Positions 2,309 through 16,174 of a stretch of DNA of 64,000 bases are shown one piece after another. Under the pieces are notes generated by a model, which was not told where the DNA came from, made no database searches, and was given only the letters and a program-made list of their open reading frames with translations. A program made the translations under genes and the position numbers. The DNA comes from Paenibacillus sp. FSL H8-0537 (lineage in GTDB: Bacteria > Bacillota > Bacilli > Paenibacillales > Paenibacillaceae), in the NCBI RefSeq assembly GCF_038051995.1, contig NZ_CP150290.1:5322001-5386000 (forward strand), given 5' to 3'. Within the stretch, counting starts at the first letter, position 1. The number at the start of each line of letters is the position of its first letter.

Positions 2309-3175
2309 TTAAGACATTAACAGCATGGCAGGAGCAGCGATAAACACCATCAACACGAGCAAAATGCCAACCAGCGGGAAAACAAGCTTCGAGGATGCCT
2401 CCTCGCCGCGCGCCCGCGCAACAGCCTTGCGCTTCTCCCACAACGTATAAGACAGCTCCCGCAGCGCCAGCACAAAATGCTCCCCGCCTCGGCGATAATT
2501 CAGCAGCAGCACTGTCGTAAAAATCGAAACCTCCTGCACCGCGCAGCTGCGATTGAATTTCTCCGCTGCTGTACTAAACGACTCGCCATTGTGCAGCGAA
2601 TATACGACTTTGTTCCATTCTTTATACAGCGGATGCTGCGTAATGTCCTTGCCTTCAAGGCAGCGCCCCAGCGCCTGCAAGACGGTTTCGCCCGCTCCGA
2701 CCAGAAGCATTAGCTTGCTGATCATTTCCGGCAGCTCCAAAATAATTTCCTGCTTGCGCTGCTTAATCAGCTTCCCTGCTTCCAGAAGCTGGCGAACAGG
2801 CAGCAGCAAGCCAAGCAGTGCCCCCATTGCCAGCAGCAGCGGTTCGCCTGCTGCACAAGCCAGTAAGGCGCAGCCTATCATGGCGCCATATCCGTAACCA
2901 GCAGCACCGCCAAGCTGCTCTTTCGTCTGCTGCAGCTGCCACCGGATTCCCCGTAAAATAACGAGCTTAGCGTGATAGCTGCTAAGTGAAAGTGCCATGT
3001 ACTCATACAAGCGGCTTCTTTCCAATAGCTCGCTGAACGGCTCAATGAAAAGCAAATGCTTTAAAGCATCCTGCTTGCGTTGTTTTTGGCGGGATACAGC
3101 CAAGATCATTCGAAGACGCTTTCCACCGATAATGAACAGCCATGACGCCATGAGCACAATCGGAATTGCTATCAT
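2309..3175 (-). CDS. tadC: TadC-like inner membrane platform protein
   Basis: A 288-residue type II secretion F-domain protein. It has hydrophobic segments near residues 1-18, 95-130 and 265-288 around a cytoplasmic helical domain (about 140-260) with the motif L-PEMISKLMLLVGAGE typical of GspF/TadC. With TadB it would form the membrane platform that couples the TadA ATPase to pilin assembly. It follows tadB by 12 bases and precedes flp, the usual order in a tad operon. Confidence 0.85.
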   Translation of the reverse strand: MIAIPIVLMASWLFIIGGKRLRMILAVSRQKQRKQDALKHLLFIEPFSELLERSRLYEYMALSLSSYHAKLVILRGIRWQLQQTKEQLGGAAGYGYGAMIGCALLACAAGEPLLLAMGALLGLLLPVRQLLEAGKLIKQRKQEIILELPEMISKLMLLVGAGETVLQALGRCLEGKDITQHPLYKEWNKVVYSLHNGESFSTAAEKFNRSCAVQEVSIFTTVLLLNYRRGGEHFVLALRELSYTLWEKRKAVARARGEEASSKLVFPLVGILLVLMVFIAAPAMLLMS

Positions 3176-3187
3176 TTGCGCTCGCTC

Positions 3188-4168
3188 CTATACACGAATA
3201 CTCATTATTTTATGGATAAACCAAAAGCATACTAACAATGCCCCAAGGCCAATCGTCAGCAGCAAATAGCCCATTCCTCCATATAGAGGAGCCATATAAT
3301 CCGGAGCCATTAGATTCAAAAGGCCAAGAAATATAAAGGGAATCGCCATCATAATGCGTGCCTCAAAGCGTTTTTGTGCCAGCAGCACCATAATATCCTG
3401 CTGGATTTCCAGCTTTTCGCCAATCGTCTGCGCCGTACGCTTCATCACCTCTACCAAATCGCCTCCAGTGCGCTTGCAGGCAGCAAACACATCAACGAAT
3501 TGTACGATATCCTCTACATGAGCGCGGGCTGCTAGGCTTCGCAGCGCATGCTCCAGCGGCTCCGCATGCTCAAGACGGTGCTTAACGATTTGAAACTCCA
3601 GCAGCAGCTCCGTTCTTGGGTCAGGATAAAGCAGCTTTAAATCATCCAACGTCGCAATAAAGGCATTTTCCACCGATCTTCCTGCCGCAAGACAGGAGGT
3701 CAGCGAATAAAGCGCCTCCTTGAATTGCAGCTTCAACCGCTCCTTGCGACGCGAAATTAATGAAGCCTTGTAATAACGTGGTGCGCATAATCCCAATCCG
3801 GCTGCGATGAGACAAACCAGAAGGGAATGGTACACCGTATACAGAGCAGTAAAAACAGCTGCATAACCGATAATTGCTGCCACTGCGAACTCGCGATAAG
3901 ACAGCACATACCTATCATAATTCGTTAAATATCCGGTCTTGGACGGCTGCCAGCTGGTATTACTCCCGTTCCCGTCTTCACCTTCACTTCTGTCACCTTC
4001 GTGCTCAAGGCCACACCAGGAGAGCGCTCTATTGAGCAGCCGTTGCCCGACTATCCCTGTGTTCTTGGCTTTCTTGGCTTTCTTGGCTTTCTTGGCTTTC
4101 TTGGCTTTCTCCGCTTTCTCCGCTTTCTCGGCTTTCTCCGCTCTCATCGCATTCCCCAATATCTTCAA
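3188..4168 (-). CDS. tadB: TadB-like inner membrane platform protein with repetitive N-terminus
   Basis: A 326-residue F-domain protein: membrane segments at about 95-130, a cytoplasmic domain with SLTSCLAAGRSVENAF, and two C-terminal helices. The first 40 residues are a run of E-K-A and K-K-A triplets encoded by nine-base repeats. The start is a TTG at 4168 with a strong GGAGGAGGAG site just upstream, inside the tadA coding sequence, so the 140-base overlap with tadA looks real. The lysine-rich arm should lie in the cytoplasm. Homologous TadB proteins are not expected to need this arm, so its role is unknown. Confidence 0.82.
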   Translation of the reverse strand: MKILGNAMRAEKAEKAEKAEKAKKAKKAKKAKKAKNTGIVGQRLLNRALSWCGLEHEGDRSEGEDGNGSNTSWQPSKTGYLTNYDRYVLSYREFAVAAIIGYAAVFTALYTVYHSLLVCLIAAGLGLCAPRYYKASLISRRKERLKLQFKEALYSLTSCLAAGRSVENAFIATLDDLKLLYPDPRTELLLEFQIVKHRLEHAEPLEHALRSLAARAHVEDIVQFVDVFAACKRTGGDLVEVMKRTAQTIGEKLEIQQDIMVLLAQKRFEARIMMAIPFIFLGLLNLMAPDYMAPLYGGMGYLLLTIGLGALLVCFWFIHKIMSIRV

Positions 4169-5402
4169 AACGCTCCTCCTCCAGTGTTAGTCCTGCCATT
4201 TGCAGCTTGTTCCGGTGAAGAAGTGAATGAACGGTACGCTTTAAAGCTCCTAGCACCTTGCCGTCTTTCTCTCCCTCCTCCTCAAAACGGAACAAGGGGC
4301 GAAGCTCGATTTCCCCACCATCTATGCCGACAATTTCAGCTATTTCTGTTACACGGCGCGTACGGTCGCGAAACCGCGATAGATGAATGACAATGTCCAA
4401 TGCGGAGACGATTTGCTGCCGAATGACCTGAACGGGCAAATCAGCTGCACCAAGTGCCATCGTCTCGAGCCTTGCCATCATGTCGCGCGCACCGTTGCTA
4501 TGACCAGTGGACATGCTGCCTGAATGCCCGGTATTCATCGCTTGCAGCATATCCAGCGTTTCCGGCCCCCTTACCTCGCCGACGATGATTCGATTAGGAC
4601 GCATCCGCAGCGATGCGCGAATAAGATCGCGAACCGTAATTTCACCTTTGCCCTCGGTGTTGGCATTGCGCGTCTCCAGCGATACTAGATTGGCAACGCT
4701 GCGAATTTGCAGTTCAGCAGAATCTTCAATGGTTACAACTCGCTCATCAGCAGGAATAAACTGGGACAACGCATTCAGGAAAGTTGTCTTGCCCGTCCCT
4801 GTCCCTCCGCTAATAAAAATATTGTATTGCGCTGCGGTCAGCTGCTGCAGAAAGCCTGCTGCCTCTGCGGTTAAAGCTCCCGCCGCAACGAGCAGCTCCA
4901 TCGTCATTGGGCGCTCAGGAAATTTGCGAATCGTCATCGCTGGTCCGCGCAAGGCTACAGGCGGCAGTACAACGTGGACGCGAGAGCCATCCTTAAGACG
5001 GGCATCAACAATAGGCGAAGACTCGTTCACGACACGATTGACACCTGCAACGACAGCTTGAATCAAGTCCTCCAGCCGCTCCTTGCTTTCAAAGGCAGCT
5101 GGCAGTTGTGTCATCGTTCCGCTTCGTTCAATAAAAATTTCGCCGTGATGATTGATCATAATTTCAGTAACTGCCTGATCATCCATCAGCGGCTGTAAAA
5201 TATCCAAACCCCGAAAGGAATGAAACAGCCTCCGAACCAACTGGACCTTCTCTGCCGCCGTAAGCGGACTTCCACTATTGCAATAGTCAAATACCGTCTG
5301 CTCCACGTTTCGCGTCAGCTCTTCATCCGTTACAGCGCCGCTGAAATCAAGCTGCGACCTAATCTGGTTTCTTAATGCAAGTACCAGCTCATCGGTTAGC
5401 AA
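4029..5402 (-). CDS. tadA: TadA/CpaF secretion ATPase
   Basis: A 457-residue hexameric secretion ATPase of the GspE family that powers Flp pilus assembly. Seen directly: Walker A GGTGTGKTT at 199-207, Walker B RIIVGEVRG at 271-279 and the His box TGHSGSMSTGHSN at 291-303. The C-terminus beyond about residue 400 is an unusual acidic tail of S-Q-E and S-G-E triplets, encoded by the same nine-base repeats that encode the TadB arm in another frame. The start at 5402 overlaps tadZ by 14 bases, indicating translational coupling. Confidence 0.92.
   Translation of the reverse strand: MLTDELVLALRNQIRSQLDFSGAVTDEELTRNVEQTVFDYCNSGSPLTAAEKVQLVRRLFHSFRGLDILQPLMDDQAVTEIMINHHGEIFIERSGTMTQLPAAFESKERLEDLIQAVVAGVNRVVNESSPIVDARLKDGSRVHVVLPPVALRGPAMTIRKFPERPMTMELLVAAGALTAEAAGFLQQLTAAQYNIFISGGTGTGKTTFLNALSQFIPADERVVTIEDSAELQIRSVANLVSLETRNANTEGKGEITVRDLIRASLRMRPNRIIVGEVRGPETLDMLQAMNTGHSGSMSTGHSNGARDMMARLETMALGAADLPVQVIRQQIVSALDIVIHLSRFRDRTRRVTEIAEIVGIDGGEIELRPLFRFEEEGEKDGKVLGALKRTVHSLLHRNKLQMAGLTLEEERFEDIGECDESGESRESGESGESQESQESQESQESQEHRDSRATAAQ
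4062..4142. repeat. Nine 9-base tandem repeats in the tadA/tadB overlap
   Basis: Nine consecutive 9-base units: five copies of ttcttggct, then ttctccgct twice, ttctcggct and ttctccgct. They lie where the 3' end of tadA and the 5' end of tadB overlap and are translated in two frames on the minus strand, as SQE/SGE in TadA and AKK/AEK in TadB. Because the unit is a multiple of three, gain or loss of copies changes both proteins in length without breaking either frame. Confidence 0.95.
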
Positions 5403-8996: not shown

Positions 8997-10832
8997 TTAT
9001 CCCGGCCCGCCCGCCTGATACTCCAGCAGCTTGCTGAACATCCCCTTGGACTCGCGATACAGCTGATTATAGCCGCCTTGCTGGATGATTCTGCCCTCTT
9101 CCAAGACGATAACCTGATCGGCGTCACGAATCGTTGACAGTCGGTGGGCAATGACAATAATCGTTAGTTTGCCCTTCAGCTGCTCAAGTGCCTGCTGAAT
9201 TTTCAGCTCATTTTCGCTGTCGAGTGAGCTGGTTGCCTCATCCAGTACAAGGATCGACGGCTTCCTAAGCATCGCTCGCGCCAATACAATGCGCTGCCGT
9301 TCACCGCCAGACAGCCTTACCCCGCGATCGCCCACGATCGTGTCCAGTCCCTGCGGCAGCGCGCGAACGAAGGCATCAGACGCCGAAAAAGCGAGCGCCT
9401 CCCACAATTGCTCCTCCGTCGCTCCCGGCAGTACGAGCTTTAAATTTTCACGAATGCTGACATTAAAAAGAAAGGGGTCCTGCGAGACATAACTCACCGC
9501 GCTGCGGTAAGCAAAGCGATTGCTATCGTCCAGCGGAGCACCATCGAGCAGCACCGCTCCGTGCTGGGGTACGATTAGCCCGATTAACGTATCGATCAGC
9601 GTACTTTTTCCCGCCCCGGACTTGCCGACAATTGCCGTCATGCTGTTCGCCGGGATACGCAAATTAATATGCTTCAGCGCATACGTCTCATCCTGCTCCC
9701 GGTAGCGATAATACACATCCTGGCAGACCAGCTCATGCACAAGCTTCAGCGCAGCAGGCTCTGCCTGCTCTGCCTGCTTTGTTCGCTCTGTTGGGTCAGC
9801 AGGCTTATTCAGCTGCATTTCCTCAGCAGCGCCACATTCCTTCATCAAGTCATTCAAGCTCTTGAATGCCGGGAGCGTCAGCACGATTTGCTCCATAGAG
9901 GTTTGAATGAGCGTCAGCTTCGGCCACAGCCTTGTAAAAATCAGCACAATTAATGTAAGCTGCGCTACCCCAACCTGCAGAACCTGCACCGATAAAAATA
10001 CGCAGCCCGCAATCATCAACGCTGAGATACTTTTAAATAGGAGCTGGCTATTGGATTGCAGCTTCACAAACTGCACATTATTGTGCTCCATTTGCTGCGT
10101 CAGCTTGCTGAACCAGGACAGATGACTTTCCTCCAGCCGATTGCTTTTGATCTCCTTAATGCCATTGAAATGATCGGTTATGCCCGCCACATAGCTCTGC
10201 GACAGCTCTGTCAGCCGGGTGCCAAGCGACCTTGCTCCTCGCGTGTATTTACGTGAGAACAAGCTGATTAGGCCACCGCAAATTAAAATAAGCAACGTCA
10301 GCTGATACGACAGATAGAAGGCTAGCCCGATTTGTACAAGCGTAAATATTCCCGTCGTAACTAAACGAAGTGAGAGCTGCACACCCTGATTAACCCGAGA
10401 TAGCTCGGAAGACAAAATATGATTGAAGTCCGACTTGCGCTTGCCAAGAAAAAAAGCCCAGTTCGATTGCAGCAGCGCCTGATAAATATCCATCCGCAAT
10501 TTCGTTACAAAGCTTTGAAGCAGGGCAAAGCCCTGATTCGTCTGCTGTCTTTGCAGCAGGCCCTGCCCAACATTAATGCCGATGAAAATAGCCAGTACAG
10601 CTGCAAGCAGCAGCTCCTGCGGCAGCTCGCCAAGCCAGACGCTGACCTGCGGTACGACTGGCAAGCTTGCGCTTTGCACATCAAATAAACCGATGATGCC
10701 CAGCAGCGGTATTAAGACGAGCAGCCCTACGCCCTCAAGCGAGCTGACAATCATAATACCCAGCATGTTCAAGTAAAGCTTCTTTCCTGCAAACTGATGC
10801 AGCTTTTTCATATATAGCAAAATCGGTTTCAT
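8997..10832 (-). CDS. Lasso peptide ABC exporter (D protein)
   Basis: A 611-residue half-transporter with an N-terminal six-helix exporter domain (about 20-320) and a C-terminal ATPase: Walker A GKSGAGKST at 403-411, signature LSGGERQR at 507-514, Walker B ILVLDEA at 527-533. No peptidase C39 domain is present, as expected for lasso exporters, whose leader is removed by the B protein. It should export the mature lasso peptide and give self-immunity. The linker near 345-360 carries a small duplicated Q-A-E motif. The start overlaps the nucleotidyltransferase stop as ATGA. Confidence 0.9.
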   Translation of the reverse strand: MKPILLYMKKLHQFAGKKLYLNMLGIMIVSSLEGVGLLVLIPLLGIIGLFDVQSASLPVVPQVSVWLGELPQELLLAAVLAIFIGINVGQGLLQRQQTNQGFALLQSFVTKLRMDIYQALLQSNWAFFLGKRKSDFNHILSSELSRVNQGVQLSLRLVTTGIFTLVQIGLAFYLSYQLTLLILICGGLISLFSRKYTRGARSLGTRLTELSQSYVAGITDHFNGIKEIKSNRLEESHLSWFSKLTQQMEHNNVQFVKLQSNSQLLFKSISALMIAGCVFLSVQVLQVGVAQLTLIVLIFTRLWPKLTLIQTSMEQIVLTLPAFKSLNDLMKECGAAEEMQLNKPADPTERTKQAEQAEPAALKLVHELVCQDVYYRYREQDETYALKHINLRIPANSMTAIVGKSGAGKSTLIDTLIGLIVPQHGAVLLDGAPLDDSNRFAYRSAVSYVSQDPFLFNVSIRENLKLVLPGATEEQLWEALAFSASDAFVRALPQGLDTIVGDRGVRLSGGERQRIVLARAMLRKPSILVLDEATSSLDSENELKIQQALEQLKGKLTIIVIAHRLSTIRDADQVIVLEEGRIIQQGGYNQLYRESKGMFSKLLEYQAGGPG

Positions 10833-12025
10833 ATACTCACCCTTTTGCGAGGCTGCTTGAGCCTTCGATAAAAATACAGAAACGGCCGCAGCGGAAAATA
10901 TAGAAAATGCAGTCCCTTAGGCAAAGGCAAAGTCTGCGCATCCCAGGCGCTTGGATAAAGCTTGCCGATGAAATGGGTCAGCTTCTCCCGGCTTGTCAGC
11001 AGCATAAAGGTATAACGCTTATAAAGCAGCGCCATCTTCTTCTCCTCTGGAATCGGGCTGATCGTAACCGTCTCCTGAATAAATGGAAAAATGCAGCGTA
11101 CAAGCCTATGCACGAGGGGGCTGTCGGTCAACGGCAGCAGTGTCTCGGGAAGCTTTACACCGAATAGCTCTCGCGCCAAAACAAGCGCCTGCCCTATGGC
11201 CGCCGCTCCTCCGTTTCTCCGTGTTTCCTCTATCAGCGATTCGCCGCCGTCCTCGCAGGCAGAAGCAAGCTGGGCAATATCATGCAGCCAGCGCAGCCGG
11301 AACCAGCCATGTCTTGCGCCATGGCTGGCGAGATAATGAAACAGATGCTCCGGCCCTAAATAAGGGATCGGACTTCCCGTCTGCTCATAGATTCTGCGCT
11401 GCGCCCATAATTGCTCGAAGGACACTTCCTTCACCGCATCAGGGCTGAGTCGCCAGTGCAGCTCAATTTGCGTCTGATTGATCGTATGCTCGAAGCAGCT
11501 ATGATGCGTTTTCCACTTTAAATCATTAAACAAACGCGGCGCCGGGTCCCGATCATAATAACCAAGCTCTTCAAGCAACGCCTCGGCTCGGTCAACATCC
11601 TCTATTGGCACTAAAATATCCAGGTCCTTGCTTGTGCGCTGGGAAATATCGCCGTAAAGCTCATGTGCAATAACTGGCCCTTTCAATTGCAAGGAGCGTA
11701 TGCCGCGCTCTGCCAAAGCCGCTACAATCCGCTGCATCTCGGCGCTGAGCCTCAGCATCATCAGCGTATTGGCGTAATAATCCTGCTGGAGCGTCAGCAG
11801 CACCGACTTCGGCAGCACCGGCTTCACAAGCTGCTTCAGCTTCAAATAGAGGCTTGGATATACACGGTGATGGCGCGCCAATTCGATAATCTTCTCCCCG
11901 TTCAGCCTGCTGCCGGCCCAGCGGCGGCCAATGACTGCCGGATCGGCATTTGGCCGCAGGCACTCGAGAATAAATTGCAATTCAAGCGGAAGGTTAGCCA
12001 CTTCCCATTCATACGTTTTATCCAT
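10829..12025 (-). CDS. Nucleotidyltransferase-family protein of the lasso cluster
   Basis: A 398-residue protein of the NTP_transf_5 type: KGPVIAHELYG followed by the metal-binding pair D-L-D in RTSKDLDILV. In HPr-kinase-containing lasso clusters of Bacillales a gene of this family often accompanies the modification genes; its substrate is not settled. The ATG at 12025 is chosen because it overlaps the B2 stop and starts a conserved-looking sequence; a longer frame upstream runs inside B2. Coupled to B2 before it and the exporter after it. Confidence 0.8.
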   Translation of the reverse strand: MDKTYEWEVANLPLELQFILECLRPNADPAVIGRRWAGSRLNGEKIIELARHHRVYPSLYLKLKQLVKPVLPKSVLLTLQQDYYANTLMMLRLSAEMQRIVAALAERGIRSLQLKGPVIAHELYGDISQRTSKDLDILVPIEDVDRAEALLEELGYYDRDPAPRLFNDLKWKTHHSCFEHTINQTQIELHWRLSPDAVKEVSFEQLWAQRRIYEQTGSPIPYLGPEHLFHYLASHGARHGWFRLRWLHDIAQLASACEDGGESLIEETRRNGGAAAIGQALVLARELFGVKLPETLLPLTDSPLVHRLVRCIFPFIQETVTISPIPEEKKMALLYKRYTFMLLTSREKLTHFIGKLYPSAWDAQTLPLPKGLHFLYFPLRPFLYFYRRLKQPRKRVSI

Positions 12026-12488
12026 AGCGTTGCTCCTTCTTCCGCTTAATCTGATTACCGAACAAGCCAACGACGGTGAAACGACCCATTTCTTCGACAC
12101 CTGTTATGTAGTAGGGGCCGCTGCGAAGCCAGGCATGGGCAATCATTTTGCCTGATTCGTCCTTGGCTGTGCCCAAATAGAGCGTGCTCGCTATTTTTCT
12201 GCGTTTCAGCAGCTTCATCGCGGCGATTCCCTTAACGAGACATTCGCTTTCCCACCAAGTATAGCGGCTCATCTGCCGTATCGCTTTCGCCACCTCACTG
12301 AGCATCTGCTCATGCTCCGCTACCCGCTCATAGGGCGTCTCCTTCATAGGAACACCTAGAGTAGGGGCAACTTTAGCGAAAGGAATCAGTTTGAGAAGAC
12401 GCGCCCAGGCGAGCAGCATATAGGCTTCGAACAGAAGAAGCTTGCTGCGAAGCGGCAGCAAGGTGAACTGGCTCCATTTTTTAAGCAA
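12018..12488 (-). CDS. Lasso peptide leader protease (B2, transglutaminase-like)
   Basis: A 156-residue protein with the fold signature of lasso B2 proteases: catalytic Cys83 in SECLVKGIAAM and His118 in AHAWL. The usual third acidic residue is not obvious after HAWL, where the sequence reads RSGPYY. B2 cuts the leader from the precursor bound by B1. The only sensible start is TTG at 12488, about ten bases after AAGGAAAGGGCGG; the ATG next to it is out of frame. Confidence 0.9.
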   Translation of the reverse strand: MLKKWSQFTLLPLRSKLLLFEAYMLLAWARLLKLIPFAKVAPTLGVPMKETPYERVAEHEQMLSEVAKAIRQMSRYTWWESECLVKGIAAMKLLKRRKIASTLYLGTAKDESGKMIAHAWLRSGPYYITGVEEMGRFTVVGLFGNQIKRKKEQRYG

Positions 12489-12521
12489 GACAATCGAACC
12501 GCCCTTTCCTTGAACTATTCG

Positions 12522-12863
12522 CTAATCTGCCGTAGCTCCTGCTCCGCCATTCTGTGCGCCTGCATTCGAGACAGGCTCAAGCAGCCCTTCCGCATACAGA
12601 TCCTGTAAAAAATCTGCCACCTGCTGGTCGCATGCCGCTGGCTCCACTTCATACTCTTTGAGCAACTGGGCCACAATGTCGCGGCGTGTCACGGGCGACG
12701 CCGTCCGCTCCCAAATGATGCCGCCCAGCTTGCCCATGTTGTAATATTTGCCCGAAGACAGGCTTAACAGCACTTTATCGCCATCCATATCAGTAGCCAA
12801 ATGACCTTCTGTCCGCTGGATTATCTGTTCAGGCTGCAGAAGCGGTCTAGCTTGTTTAGACAT
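12522..12863 (-). CDS. Lasso precursor recognition protein (B1, PqqD-like RRE)
   Basis: A 113-residue PqqD-like protein (DGDKVLLSLSSGKYYNMGKLGGIIWE, of which the core is the RRE strand-helix pattern). B1 binds the precursor leader and hands it to protease and cyclase. ATG 12863 is preferred to the GTG nine bases upstream because the latter sits directly on the AAAGGA site. It overlaps the end of the kinase gene, and 33 bases separate it from B2. Confidence 0.88.
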   Translation of the reverse strand: MSKQARPLLQPEQIIQRTEGHLATDMDGDKVLLSLSSGKYYNMGKLGGIIWERTASPVTRRDIVAQLLKEYEVEPAACDQQVADFLQDLYAEGLLEPVSNAGAQNGGAGATAD

Positions 12864-13806
12864 TTGCCTCACGTCCTTTCTGAGTCGCTGCTAGTATTAG
12901 ATCAACCATTTCATAAGCGGAAAATGCTCCTTCTGCGGGACGCTGCAATTGATAAGCCTGCACGCTTGCTGCAAGCCGAACAACAGCAGAAAAATGCCAA
13001 TTTTGCAGCCTTAAAGGCGCAATTAGAAAATGTCGGAAGGTGTGGTTCAGCAATACAGGCAGCTTCGCTAGTGAATGCAGCTGTGATAGCGATACCGCAT
13101 TTGCTTCTGTGCGCGAAAGCTCAAATACGGCGGCGAGTGGAAGTGGAGAGGCTAGGAAGCTGGCAGATAACGGAACAGCGAATTTGGATACGGAATAGGC
13201 AAGCGGCTTATAAAGCTGACTCGTTCTTCCGAGCTGCTCGACGCTTTGCTGCCACAGCTTTTGCTGCGGATAGGAGGGCATGACAATTGACGAGCCATTT
13301 GCACCAGCCTCCGGTTCCTTTAAGGCAATGACATCATCACTAAGCAGGGGATAGCCACGGTCTATAAAAGCTGCGGCCAGCGTCGACTTTCCTGCCCCAG
13401 AGTCCCCTACGAAAGCATAGGCCTTGCCGTCTATGGCTATAGCGCTCCCATGCAGCGGCAGCTGCTTTCTCTGCAGGAGCAGCGCGCCTAGGCATGTTCC
13501 AAGCAGGTAAAGCCGGAGCCTGCCCTCATCCATGTTTTCGCATGGCTCCACAATAATCCGTTTGCCCTCTTGAATGCAGAAGCTTGCGACCTCGTGAATA
13601 TAAAAAAACAATTTTGCGCCGTGAACAACGTAATGATCCTGCGTTTGCTCCAAAATCGGCCACGTAAATTCTGGCTTAGCCAGCTCTATTTCAACATCTG
13701 CAAACGCTTTCGAATTTTCCGCCTCAAGCAGCTCAGGCAGCTCAATTTCACTGCTGATACATAAGCCGAAAGCGTCGTAGATTGCTTTTTTCCCAGTTAC
13801 TATCAT
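12856..13806 (-). CDS. HPr kinase-like lasso peptide kinase
   Basis: A 316-residue HPr-kinase/phosphorylase-like protein: Walker A GDSGAGKST at 134-142, preceded by LHGSAIAI with His119, and an Asp pair at 157-158. In the related paeninodin cluster of Paenibacillus such a kinase phosphorylates the C-terminal Ser of the precursor peptide. The precursor here also ends in Ser, which fits. ATG 13806 is chosen for its AAGGGTG site six bases upstream; the longer frame would need a TTG without a ribosome site. Confidence 0.87.
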   Translation of the reverse strand: MIVTGKKAIYDAFGLCISSEIELPELLEAENSKAFADVEIELAKPEFTWPILEQTQDHYVVHGAKLFFYIHEVASFCIQEGKRIIVEPCENMDEGRLRLYLLGTCLGALLLQRKQLPLHGSAIAIDGKAYAFVGDSGAGKSTLAAAFIDRGYPLLSDDVIALKEPEAGANGSSIVMPSYPQQKLWQQSVEQLGRTSQLYKPLAYSVSKFAVPLSASFLASPLPLAAVFELSRTEANAVSLSQLHSLAKLPVLLNHTFRHFLIAPLRLQNWHFSAVVRLAASVQAYQLQRPAEGAFSAYEMVDLILAATQKGREANV

Positions 13807-13878
13807 CGCGTTCACCCTTATATGAATAAAATCGCGTTGCTTCAAGCCATCAAAAGTAATCGTTTCGCGGTGAAACCT

Positions 13879-13897
13879 GTACTTCCCTATATTTGAA
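13879..13897. repeat. Single arm of a palindromic repeat also found in the EPS operon
   Basis: The stretch from gtacttcc to atatttgaa matches the right arm of the hairpin repeats at 31860-31907 and 25985-26030 at 17 of 19 positions. Only one arm is recognisable here. Confidence 0.4.
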
Positions 13898-13901
13898 CAA
13901 A

Positions 13902-13953
13902 ATCAACAAAGTCCTTGTACAAGGATATCCTGCTGTATAAGGACCTTGTTGAT
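13902..13953 (-). terminator. Hairpin between precursor and kinase genes
   Basis: ATCAACAA-GTCCTT pairs with AAGGAC-TTGTTGAT, with one mismatch inside the stem; on the minus strand it is followed by TTTGTTC. This weak U-tract suggests partial termination or mRNA protection, giving more precursor message than downstream enzyme message. Confidence 0.55.
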
Positions 13954-13986
13954 CACTTTTACTGCATAAGTATAATGGATTTATTT

Positions 13987-14151
13987 CTAGGAAAAGGAAG
14001 TGCCTGGATCGATAGGGAACGGAGTTGGGTCATCAGTGACGTCAAAGTCCCCCGCTTTTACAAAATCAATGTAACGTGTACCTACGCCAGCCATCGTCTC
14101 GCTCACTTGCAGCGTTTCGAGAACCGGAGCTTGCCATTGTTGTTTCTCCAT
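13987..14151 (-). CDS. Lasso peptide precursor (A), 54 residues
   Basis: A small gene directly after the cyclase gene, with GGAGGTG in the last cyclase codons and ATG at 14151. The leader (1-20) has W6-x-x-P9-x-L11, matching the YxxPxL leader motif read by B1, and Thr19 at the -2 position. Cleavage after Met20 gives a core starting AGVGTRYID, so Ala21 can close a nine-residue ring on Asp29. Paeninodin also begins Ala-Gly-x-Gly-Thr and closes on residue 9, as recalled. The predicted core is 34 residues and ends PGTSFS; the C-terminal Ser54 is the likely kinase target. Core length is well above the roughly 15-25 usual for the class. Confidence 0.9.
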   Translation of the reverse strand: MEKQQWQAPVLETLQVSETMAGVGTRYIDFVKAGDFDVTDDPTPFPIDPGTSFS

Positions 14152-14153
14152 GC

Positions 14154-16109
14154 TTATTCACCTCCCTTCAAATTAAACTGCCGGACAAACCGGCAGGCTA
14201 CGAGGCAATGCAATAAATAACGGCTGTTTAAATCAACCGCGTATTCCGGCTTCGGCACTAAGCCGACCTGTTCCAGCGAAGTCCTCATCTGCTCTACATT
14301 GAAAAACTGTGCAAGATACGAATCGTTGCAATATTGCCGCAGCTCCTCTACAAATGCAGACCAAACCGGCGTCATTCGATGAACCCAATCCGCTGCTTGA
14401 ATGCCGCGCACCCGCTGGTTTAACCGAATTTGATCGGGCAAATAGTTGGCCGTTGACTCGCGGATTAAAGCACGGTCGTAACCGTCATGAACGTATTGCT
14501 CAATCGGAACAGACAAGCAAAACTTCACAACCCGCGGATCGCTGGTCGGGTCTCGTTCCCACAGCGCATAGCTTAGCGATAGCTTGGTGCGCTGCGTACC
14601 GCTCATATTGGTCATCGCCATATCCTGAAAAGGCCCCGGCTGCGCTTTAATCGCATCTTTTTCAAAAACGCTGCCTGCCCCTGCCTGCCGCTCCTTCAAT
14701 CTGGCAAAGACGTTCATCCGCTTGGCAAAAGCCGGATTGATCATGAGCGGCATCTCCTGCTGCCCATGATCCTGGTCCCGAGGAAACAGCTTCGGATAGG
14801 CGTTTTTCCCAACATAATACATAAGCCGTTTCCGCCCGACTGCCTTACGCTTGCCAAACATCGTCACTTCCCGGTACAGCCGCAGCCATTGCAGCCGCTT
14901 GAGGAGCAACGAATAATAATCGATGGCAGGCCCCCACGAGATCGAATGGTTTCCCATTGCTCCCGTAAGCAAAATGCCCATTCCCTGCTGCTGCGACTGC
15001 TCGTAAACCCCTTTAATCCAAAATGAATTTTCTGCAAATTTAAAGGGGATCTCCAGCATTTCCAGCCATTCATCCGCTTCCGACAGCGGGCTGCGGCCCT
15101 GCAAATCCAAATATTGATCGGCAATATTGCCAACAAACTCGACAGTTTTCTTTATAAAGGGACGTTCATCCGCCATATGCCGCCTGGACGTCCAATCCTG
15201 AAAATTCGGTTCTGGCACATAACTGAAGGTATGCAGCTGCTTTTGCTGCGCCTGTAGTGATTTTGCCGCGAAGCTGACGACCGAGCCAGAATCGAGGCCG
15301 CCGCTAAGCGTTGCGCCTACCTTCCGAAACGTCCTCATCCGGGCATTGACCGCTTCCTGAAAAATCTCCTGGAAAGCTTCCGTGTACTCCTCACGTCGCT
15401 TCAGCCTCAGCTGCTCGGGGGACTCCACCTTGCTGTGCTGCCAAAAATCAAGCTTGCCGTCCTTGATGCGAAAAGCATGCCCCGGCGGCACTTGCCGAAT
15501 ATGCTCATAGGGCGTTGCGAACAGGTCACTCGACTCATGAACAATAGCAACCGCCAAATAATCAGCGAGCCAGCTTTCATTCAGCTTTTTCTCCACATGA
15601 TGGGCGGCAAGCAGCGGCGCAATGGTGGTGCAAAAGGAGCTTTGCCGAGCATCAGAGTAGATATAAAGCGTACGGCTGCCGAACAAATCGGTCGTACCGA
15701 ACAGCTCGGATTTGCGCTGATTCCAAATGATGAACGCATAGTCGCCAATTAAATAACGCGGCGCTTCCTCTCCCCATTTGGCATAGGCCAGCATAATCAG
15801 CTCGCTATCCGGCATGCTGGCTCGCCGCTCGCGATCGATGAGCAGCTGCTCCCATAGAAATGGACGATTATCGATCATGGCATCAGCCGTAATCGTTAGT
15901 CCCAGCTCAGCTGCGTGAAAGGGCTGCGGCTGTCCGACCGATTCAGGCGTAATCCACTGGGCATGGCAGCCTAGGAAAACGCGTCCGTCATGCCAAGTAT
16001 CGACGGCATCCGCTGGATATTTTTGCAAGGCTTGCATTAGGCGCAACCCCGCTTCTACGGAAACGGGAGCTTCGGAATCCTTCTGATAAATAGCGGCGAT
16101 TGCGCTCAT
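14154..16109 (-). CDS. Lasso cyclase (C, asparagine synthetase-like)
   Basis: A 651-residue protein with an N-terminal glutaminase-like domain lacking the catalytic Cys2 (it reads MSAI), and a synthetase domain with the ATP pyrophosphatase loop SGGLDSGS at 269-276. Lasso cyclases use ATP to adenylate the ring-acceptor side chain and form the macrolactam; loss of Cys2 fits, since no glutamine is needed. It is the first gene of the operon. GGAGG lies six bases before the ATG. Confidence 0.92.
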   Translation of the reverse strand: MSAIAAIYQKDSEAPVSVEAGLRLMQALQKYPADAVDTWHDGRVFLGCHAQWITPESVGQPQPFHAAELGLTITADAMIDNRPFLWEQLLIDRERRASMPDSELIMLAYAKWGEEAPRYLIGDYAFIIWNQRKSELFGTTDLFGSRTLYIYSDARQSSFCTTIAPLLAAHHVEKKLNESWLADYLAVAIVHESSDLFATPYEHIRQVPPGHAFRIKDGKLDFWQHSKVESPEQLRLKRREEYTEAFQEIFQEAVNARMRTFRKVGATLSGGLDSGSVVSFAAKSLQAQQKQLHTFSYVPEPNFQDWTSRRHMADERPFIKKTVEFVGNIADQYLDLQGRSPLSEADEWLEMLEIPFKFAENSFWIKGVYEQSQQQGMGILLTGAMGNHSISWGPAIDYYSLLLKRLQWLRLYREVTMFGKRKAVGRKRLMYYVGKNAYPKLFPRDQDHGQQEMPLMINPAFAKRMNVFARLKERQAGAGSVFEKDAIKAQPGPFQDMAMTNMSGTQRTKLSLSYALWERDPTSDPRVVKFCLSVPIEQYVHDGYDRALIRESTANYLPDQIRLNQRVRGIQAADWVHRMTPVWSAFVEELRQYCNDSYLAQFFNVEQMRTSLEQVGLVPKPEYAVDLNSRYLLHCLVACRFVRQFNLKGGE

Positions 16110-16144
16110 GCTGTGCCTCCTTCTTTTTGATACTAACTGTATTT

Positions 16145-16174
16145 ATTATAGCACATAAAGATACAATTTGTATC
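16145..16174 (-). promoter_or_regulatory. Lasso operon promoter with GATACA dyad
   Basis: On the minus strand a consensus -10 TATAAT (16145-16150) lies 35 bases before the cyclase start. The -35 region (about 16167-16173) is poor and is covered by a perfect dyad GATACAATTTGTATC (16160-16174). A protein bound there would contact the -35 region. The same dyad family is found in the exopolysaccharide promoter. Confidence 0.7.

Follow-up and report, generated by a model that had tools for sequence, protein, structure and literature searches.

A complete paeninodin/pseudomycoidin-type lasso peptide operon in Paenibacillus sp. FSL H8-0537 with a predicted 34-residue core

Paeninodin is a lasso peptide with an Ala1-Asp9 ring and a core of 23 residues. 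According to excerpts of PMC9266682, its kinase PadeK acts on the linear precursor, phosphorylating its terminal Ser, and the His-Lys-Asp-Asp set of the kinase is essential by mutation. The same excerpts describe pseudomycoidin, whose terminal Ser is (poly)phosphorylated by K and which requires N for the addition of one or two hexoses; by knock-outs, PsmK was assigned the phosphorylation and PsmN the hexose. Excerpts of PMC13381572 add that paeninodins and linear polyphosphorylated peptides (LPPs) often adjoin capsular loci, and describe the biological roles of paeninodins as unknown. Here we describe a related operon in a 64,000-nucleotide stretch of the Paenibacillus sp. FSL H8-0537 genome (contig NZ_CP150290.1, positions 5,322,001 to 5,386,000), which we call the window and in whose numbering positions are given. 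We read it as a complete paeninodin/pseudomycoidin-type lasso operon, with a probability of roughly 0.8: K would phosphorylate Ser34, N would probably lead to a sugar on the phosphate, B1, B2 and C would make the lasso, D would export it, and the long tail would act as a spacer. We class the predicted peptide as a further, new representative of the known paeninodin/pseudomycoidin kind.

The operon comprises seven genes in the order C-A-K-B1-B2-N-D, running on the minus strand from 16109 down to 8997. An earlier sequence-only reading of this DNA had listed the same genes in the same order and place, and all seven were found as it stated. The genes and the two parts of the core that matter most are as follows.

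14154..16109, minus strand: C, a 651-residue lasso macrolactam synthetase, homologous to asparagine synthetase and carrying an SGGLDS ATP motif
13987..14151, minus strand: A, the 54-residue precursor, a leader of 20 and a core of 34 residues (AGVGTRYIDFVKAGDFDVTDDPTPFPIDPGTSFS)
14065..14091, minus strand: core residues 1-9, AGVGTRYID, the predicted Ala1-Asp9 macrolactam ring (coordinates checked)
13990..14031, minus strand: core residues 21-34, a Pro-containing tail extension beyond the end of the short relatives, with the terminal Ser
12856..13806, minus strand: K, the HPr-kinase-like precursor kinase, whose open reading frame is extendable to a TTG at 13845
12522..12872, minus strand: B1, a 116-residue RRE/PqqD-like leader-binding protein
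12018..12488, minus strand: B2, a 156-residue transglutaminase-like leader peptidase
10829..12025, minus strand: N, a homologue of NTP_transf_5 nucleotidyltransferases, whose open reading frame extends to a GTG at 12100
8997..10832, minus strand: D, a 611-residue ABC exporter

Gene content and order, catalytic residues, the leader register, in-frame conservation and a terminal Ser across relatives are the observations that carry our reading. In profile searches, the precursor matches the lasso_PadeA_fam model NF033524 well beyond chance (49 bits, E = 3.6e-13, cut-off 27). B1 scores 110 bits against NF033536 (cut-off 80), B2 scores 100 bits against NF033537 (cut-off 33), N scores 194.5 bits against PF14907 (cut-off 31.2), and D exceeds the cut-offs of both PF00005 and PF00664. 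The earlier description of the locus as a lasso operon like that of paeninodin, with an HPr-like kinase, was right as to kind. C matches PF00733 (E = 2.3e-24) and fails the cut-off of the curated lasso cyclase model NF033535 (356.5 bits, cut-off 525). K likewise scores below threshold against TIGR04352 (E = 2.2e-9, 36.8 bits, cut-off 200) and PF07475 (32 bits, cut-off 33.3). These low scores were considered as the mark of an odd cluster, an idea that we rejected because 10 of 10 control proteins score alike: in each of five other kinase-linked clusters (L038, L044, L055, L156 and L163) the cyclase also falls short of the NF033535 cut-off, at 357-374 bits, and the kinase falls short of the TIGR04352 cut-off with a similar score. 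Since those five cyclases fail too, the NF033535 cut-off does not define the peptide family.

The catalytic motifs of K, B2, C and N were assigned by us, those of K by way of HPr-kinase motifs, and they are invariant in the proteins aligned. His132, Lys153, Asp170 and Asp171 of K (numbered on the 329-residue open reading frame) are kept in 104/104 kinases, Ser269 and Asp273 of the SGGLDS motif in 71/71 C proteins, Cys83 and His118 of B2 in 73/73, and the D-x-D of N in 60/60. The start of K is more likely the ATG at 13806 than the start of the longer frame, because most alignments to 79 related loci begin at or beyond residue 9 of the long version; for N, the ATG at 12025 is likewise the more likely start. 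The gene order C-A-K-B1-B2-N-D recurs in five other loci (L032, L038, L044, L051 and L055). The genome is a single 7.0 Mb contig that yields one match to B2, one to the precursor, and two HprK-like genes, namely K and one strong full-length HprK match. A second NTP_transf_5 (PF14907) gene lies far from the operon in the same genome (L171, 6.836 Mb).

Translation confirms the precursor frame, the W-x-x-P-x-L leader, the Thr at -2, the AGVGTRYID start and the 34 residues to a terminal Ser, all as first proposed. The core consists of AGVGTRYID followed by FVKAGDFDVTDDPTPFPIDPGTSFS, and contains no Cys (translation checked). Its computed monoisotopic mass is 3585.694 as a lasso, 3665.660 with one phosphate, and 3827.713 or 3989.766 with one or two hexoses on that phosphate; residues 1-20, cyclised, would come to about 2127.03. 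A Shine-Dalgarno-like GGAGG lies within the final codons of C, directly ahead of the start codon of A. Counted from the cut site, the leader places W at -15, P at -12, L at -10, E at -9 and L at -7, the same register as the PbaA leader in the solved complex with PbaB1 (excerpts of PMC13381572). B1 aligns with the PqqD-family chain of that structure (9x90) over 87 residues without gaps (E = 5.4e-22). Twelve PbaB1 residues around the WxxPxL side chains are named in the same excerpts; in B1, by our count on this alignment, nine are identical, two change conservatively (L41 to Met, I44 to Leu) and one differs (E75 to Ala). PbaB1 E75 and Q79 are themselves described there as not strongly conserved.

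By analogy with characterised homologues, the source of each chemical step as well as of the topology, of the function given to N and of the role of the tail as a spacer, biosynthesis would proceed as follows. B1 would bind the WxxPxL leader, and K would place a phosphate on the hydroxyl of Ser34, at the C-terminal end of the still linear precursor. B2 would cut after Met-1, and C would close the ring around the threaded tail by linking the Asp9 side chain to the Ala1 amino group. N, a PsmN-like NTP_transf_5 protein, would probably lead to a sugar on the phosphate, and D would export the product. Residues 21-34 would form a longer tail below the ring, putting more distance between the knot and the modified Ser, and would be retained at least up to phosphorylation.

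The relatives used for comparison were collected via kinase loci, as a protein search with the whole precursor returned one match, a 91% identical sequence from Paenibacillus sp. KS-LC4. NCBI names that protein a 'paeninodin family lasso peptide', and the same sequence is encoded by locus L158; the suggestion that such a gene is easily missed is thus only partly right. The NF033524 model matches 239/394 genomes of the family. Profile searching found 131 precursors in 108 of 109 loci. Frequencies were taken from 79 kinase-anchored loci, the best 79 of 271 relatives of K, so that the share of long cores given below holds for that sample only. This set provides 97 precursors, counted anywhere in 77 of the 79 loci (L064 was excluded, being cut by the locus end, and L074 has no precursor), and these encode 88 distinct cores, of which 77 lie no more than 700 bases from a kinase match. 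Loci L141-L169 were picked mostly for their long tails; they stand outside the frequency count and inside the kinase tree and the Pro count.

The 88 distinct cores range from 20 to 42 residues with a median of 24. An acid (Asp or Glu) occupies position 9 in 83 of them, which supports the proposal of a paeninodin-type ring closed on Asp9. All but one end in Ser (87/88; the remaining core ends in Cys), as do 76/77 of those within 700 bases of the kinase. With the His-Lys-Asp-Asp set of K intact, these counts bear out the terminal Ser as the likely target of the encoded HPr-like kinase, and they fit phosphorylation of the untrimmed precursor. That the terminal Ser is retained whatever the core length also points to a tail that is still in place at the time K acts.

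The operon with a 34-residue core is also found in three further Paenibacillus species. In Paenibacillus algorifonticola (L032, L159), to which the bacterium of the window is close and whose strain XJ259 encodes the same core, the precursor gene differs from that of the window at one of 165 bases, silently, within an aligned stretch of about 2.7 kb whose mean column identity is 96%. L158 shows 18 base differences in the precursor gene and L160 shows 7. By non-synonymous/synonymous codon changes against the window, L158 scores 0/2 in the leader, 0/0 in the ring and 5/6 in the tail, and L160 scores 0/3, 1/0 and 2/1; the leader is free of non-synonymous change in all three other species. These data bear on the proposal that the stop codon or frame has been misread, the true core being shorter, or that the gene has decayed. 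The open reading frame is short, and the precursor protein search found a single relative. Against this, all four species share the frame, the length, the stop and the terminal Ser, leader and ring are nearly free of amino-acid change, and other genera possess 30-42 residue cores of their own. Homologues had been named in advance as the place where a wrong frame would be exposed, and they speak for the frame instead. We regard a misread or decayed gene as extremely improbable.

The tail is a separate matter. Relatives of this sequence type with short cores stop just after D-x-D-[IV]-x-D, at about residue 22 (L038, L067), and the core of the window runs on to 34. On the simplest reading, the entire core of the short relatives has its counterpart in about the first 20 residues, where the knot proper would be built; residues 21-34 are then probably a flexible spacer on the threaded tail that ends in the Ser. 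Among the long cores that lack two Cys (21, counting those from picked loci), 23% of the residues after position 20 and 5% of those at positions 10-20 are Pro, compared with 11% after position 9 in 83 short cores. As a separate observation, the long-core profile overruns the stop by a few codons in several short relatives (L117, L118 and others), which may reflect extension by loss of a stop codon, or chance.

A competing view is that the 34-residue core is made and phosphorylated, and that a host or secreted carboxypeptidase then cuts off the extension, leaving an active product of about 20-22 residues. The end of the short relatives near residue 22 is in keeping with this, as is the greater variability of the tail relative to the ring, and endogenous carboxypeptidases are described as truncating lasso products during expression in excerpts of a 2026 review. 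The only protease among the seven operon genes is B2, the terminal Ser is kept on long tails, and trimming would throw away the phosphate that K and N are maintained to install. Moreover, Pro slows many carboxypeptidases, and at 23% of the residues beyond position 20 in long cores without two Cys it would be expected to do so. The sequence-only reading had raised trimming after export; because the terminal Ser is kept in 87/88 cores whatever their length, we consider it disfavoured and, as a full account of the product, unlikely.

Several points nonetheless weigh against parts of the spacer scheme that we prefer. Variation is greater in the tail than in the leader or the ring, and the exact tail sequence therefore matters less; the same variability leaves some room for later trimming after export, disfavoured as that is. 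Excerpts of PMC9266682 leave open that PsmN is a nucleotidyltransferase and that the sugar is added by an Escherichia coli enzyme. No match to N was found near the long-cored loci L080, L146 and L149. Because no N turned up around these long-cored clusters, tail length appears independent of N, and the idea that the two go together is not supported. L146 (G007:C20) is itself a cluster with a 34-residue core, cyclase, kinase and exporter, and tblastn over 14 kb there matched neither B1 nor B2 nor N.

How unusual is the length? In the sample, 20/88 cores reach at least 30 residues and 11/88 at least 34, with a maximum of 42. Eleven of the 20 long cores are of a Bacillus type with two Cys, and nine are not. 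Of those with at least 34 residues, eight are of the two-Cys type; the other three are the core of the window (represented by P. algorifonticola), L055 (36 residues) and L080 (40 residues). A core of 34 is thus rare against cores without two Cys, at 3/77 in the sample with that of the window included. A directed search added ten further cores of 34-41 residues without two Cys, from nine loci (L141-L149). The claim of unusual length stands in part: the core is longer than the extremes in the excerpts of the 2026 review, and only three cores of the sample without Cys reach 34, but the length is far from unique. Nor is a long core peculiar to the genus, a possibility rejected on the strength of the 30-42 residue cores that other genera carry.

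The two-Cys cores merit separate mention. Eleven distinct sequences of 32-42 residues with a terminal Ser follow the pattern NG(P/N)GNA(N/V)(A/P)DCFDV...SNASC...S, and their precursor genes lie upstream of the kinase (L036, L059, L072, L077, L083, L084, L087, L088, L089, L100 and L105). They are predicted to be kinase-tagged lasso peptides, possibly with a tail disulfide like that of class IV. Four core strings, those of the two-Cys type included, had no match in the texts of the papers searched, though published lasso precursor sets may hold such sequences as predictions.

On a tree of 104 kinases, used as a proxy for the clusters, the 32 long rows (two-Cys type included) require 14 parsimony changes, compared with 27.4 in shuffles, and at least 6 are forced by well supported branches. 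The tree was reduced from 108 rows to 104, five loci that repeat genomes or stretches having been dropped. Long cores are clustered, yet they do not form one clade. The notion of a single new subclass, put forward by the sequence-only reading, fails on this tree, where long cores are scattered. The group of four species that includes the window adjoins L044 (30 residues) with a support of 92, under the mark of 95. One could imagine that extended tails, either rich in Pro or bearing two Cys, arose repeatedly among the kinase-tagged lasso peptides of the Bacillota, in cores of 30-42 residues, some of them longer than the longest-tailed characterised lasso peptide; the terminal Ser would be kept so that the threaded tail, as a spacer, could offer a phospho-Ser or glycophospho-Ser to some partner, surface polysaccharide for example. 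We regard this broader proposal as doubtful.

The surroundings of the operon lend themselves to a related idea. Fifteen proteins were scanned between 16222 and 33806, upstream of C, three of them without a Pfam match. The others include a sugar-nucleotide dehydrogenase, two NTP_transferase proteins (one with a mannose-6-phosphate isomerase domain), three glycosyltransferases, a hexapeptide protein, a flippase-like protein, a GDP-mannose dehydratase, an epimerase, a bacterial sugar transferase and an AAA_31/ParA-type ATPase. The region looks like an exopolysaccharide or capsule locus, judged by these domains, and the window fits the trend of paeninodins beside capsular loci. The modified Ser on its long tail might accordingly be joined, through an N-dependent step, to the polysaccharide of the neighboring locus, making the peptide a surface tag and not a free antibiotic. 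In addition to the adjacency itself and the general association of paeninodins and LPPs with capsular loci, a biofilm role is mentioned as speculation in the excerpts of PMC13381572, and PsmN is required for hexose on the phospho-Ser (PMC9266682, excerpts). Yet no enzyme for transfer to a polymer was identified, long tails are present at loci where N was not found, and phosphoglycosylated pseudomycoidin came from heterologous expression of its cluster, again in excerpts of PMC9266682. We judge a surface tag very unlikely. On the other side of the operon, a T2SSE ATPase and two T2SSF proteins (2309-5402) represent a pilus or secretion apparatus. A plasmid sequence search gave a single partial match, which was not used.

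Two noncoding features bear on expression.

13880..13986, minus strand: hairpin between A and K followed by a U-rich stretch
16110..16174, minus strand: operon promoter region, with the palindrome GATACAAATTGTATC, a TATAAT nine bases on and then a GTATC half site (read directly)

The A-K hairpin has a folding energy of -32.7 kcal/mol (z = -4.7), and 0/200 shuffles are as stable. Its stem folds in all four species; the changes in P. algorifonticola lie in the loop, and one stem base in L158 turns a pair into G-U. Among 100 A-K gaps, that of the window included, 53 reach z of -3 or lower and 78 reach -2 or lower (60 shuffles each). The hairpin is a probable attenuating terminator or processing structure. 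In other peptide operons such a hairpin raises the precursor over the enzymes, and by analogy it probably lets precursor A be made in excess here. In the promoter region, GATACAAA(T/A)TGTATC, TATAAT and GTATCA are kept in the four species. A sigma-70 scan of the window did not list this promoter, and a regulated promoter is therefore possible; the palindrome is a possible operator of some regulator.

One other assignment was considered for the peptide itself. LPPs are characterised by a SipW-like signal peptidase, the lack of a cyclase and a YxxP leader (PMC13381572, excerpts). An LPP identity was rejected, as a cyclase and B2 are present, none of the seven scanned genes encodes a signal peptidase, and the leader carries W.

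Compared with the described systems, the locus shares its precursor family, by NF033524, with paeninodin from Paenibacillus dendritiformis C454 (pade), where an HPr-like kinase also acts on the precursor C-terminal Ser (excerpts of PMC9266682). The features of the paeninodin type are all found: A, B1, B2 and C together in one operon, an HPr-like kinase with His-Lys-Asp-Asp beside a precursor ending in Ser, and an NF033524 match with a WxxPxL leader and Thr at -2. The differences are a core of 34 residues as against 23, another core sequence, and the presence of N. Pseudomycoidin from Bacillus pseudomycoides DSM 12442 (psm) has both K and N, as the window does, a likeness of gene content; the corresponding feature, an NTP_transf_5 gene with D-x-D in the operon, is present, with the Pfam family of PsmN itself taken as assumed. 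The pba cluster of Paenibacillus alginolyticus (PbaA, PbaB1) shares the WxxPxL leader register and most RRE leader-contact residues, and an LPP cluster adjoins it (PMC13381572, excerpts), whereas K and the full-length HprK are the only HprK-like genes in the genome of the window.

In the excerpts of the 2026 review, the longest tail is that of pandonodin, with 33 residues in all, and the largest loop that of achromonodin-1, with 30; the text does not state outright that 33 is the longest core. Pandonodin resembles the predicted peptide in its long tail, but it is a proteobacterial class IV peptide with a tail-tail disulfide, and the core described here has no Cys, ends in Ser and is one residue longer. 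A full-length product, if made, would surpass the 33 residues of pandonodin and show that a chain of 25 residues can follow the ring and be modified at its last position. The wide range of core lengths and the near-invariant terminal Ser raise the questions of whether the kinase needs only the peptide end, and of what purpose the C-terminal phosphate and sugar serve. Generally, 34 residues are remarkable against the characterised peptides; against the predicted relatives, they are uncommon but far from alone.

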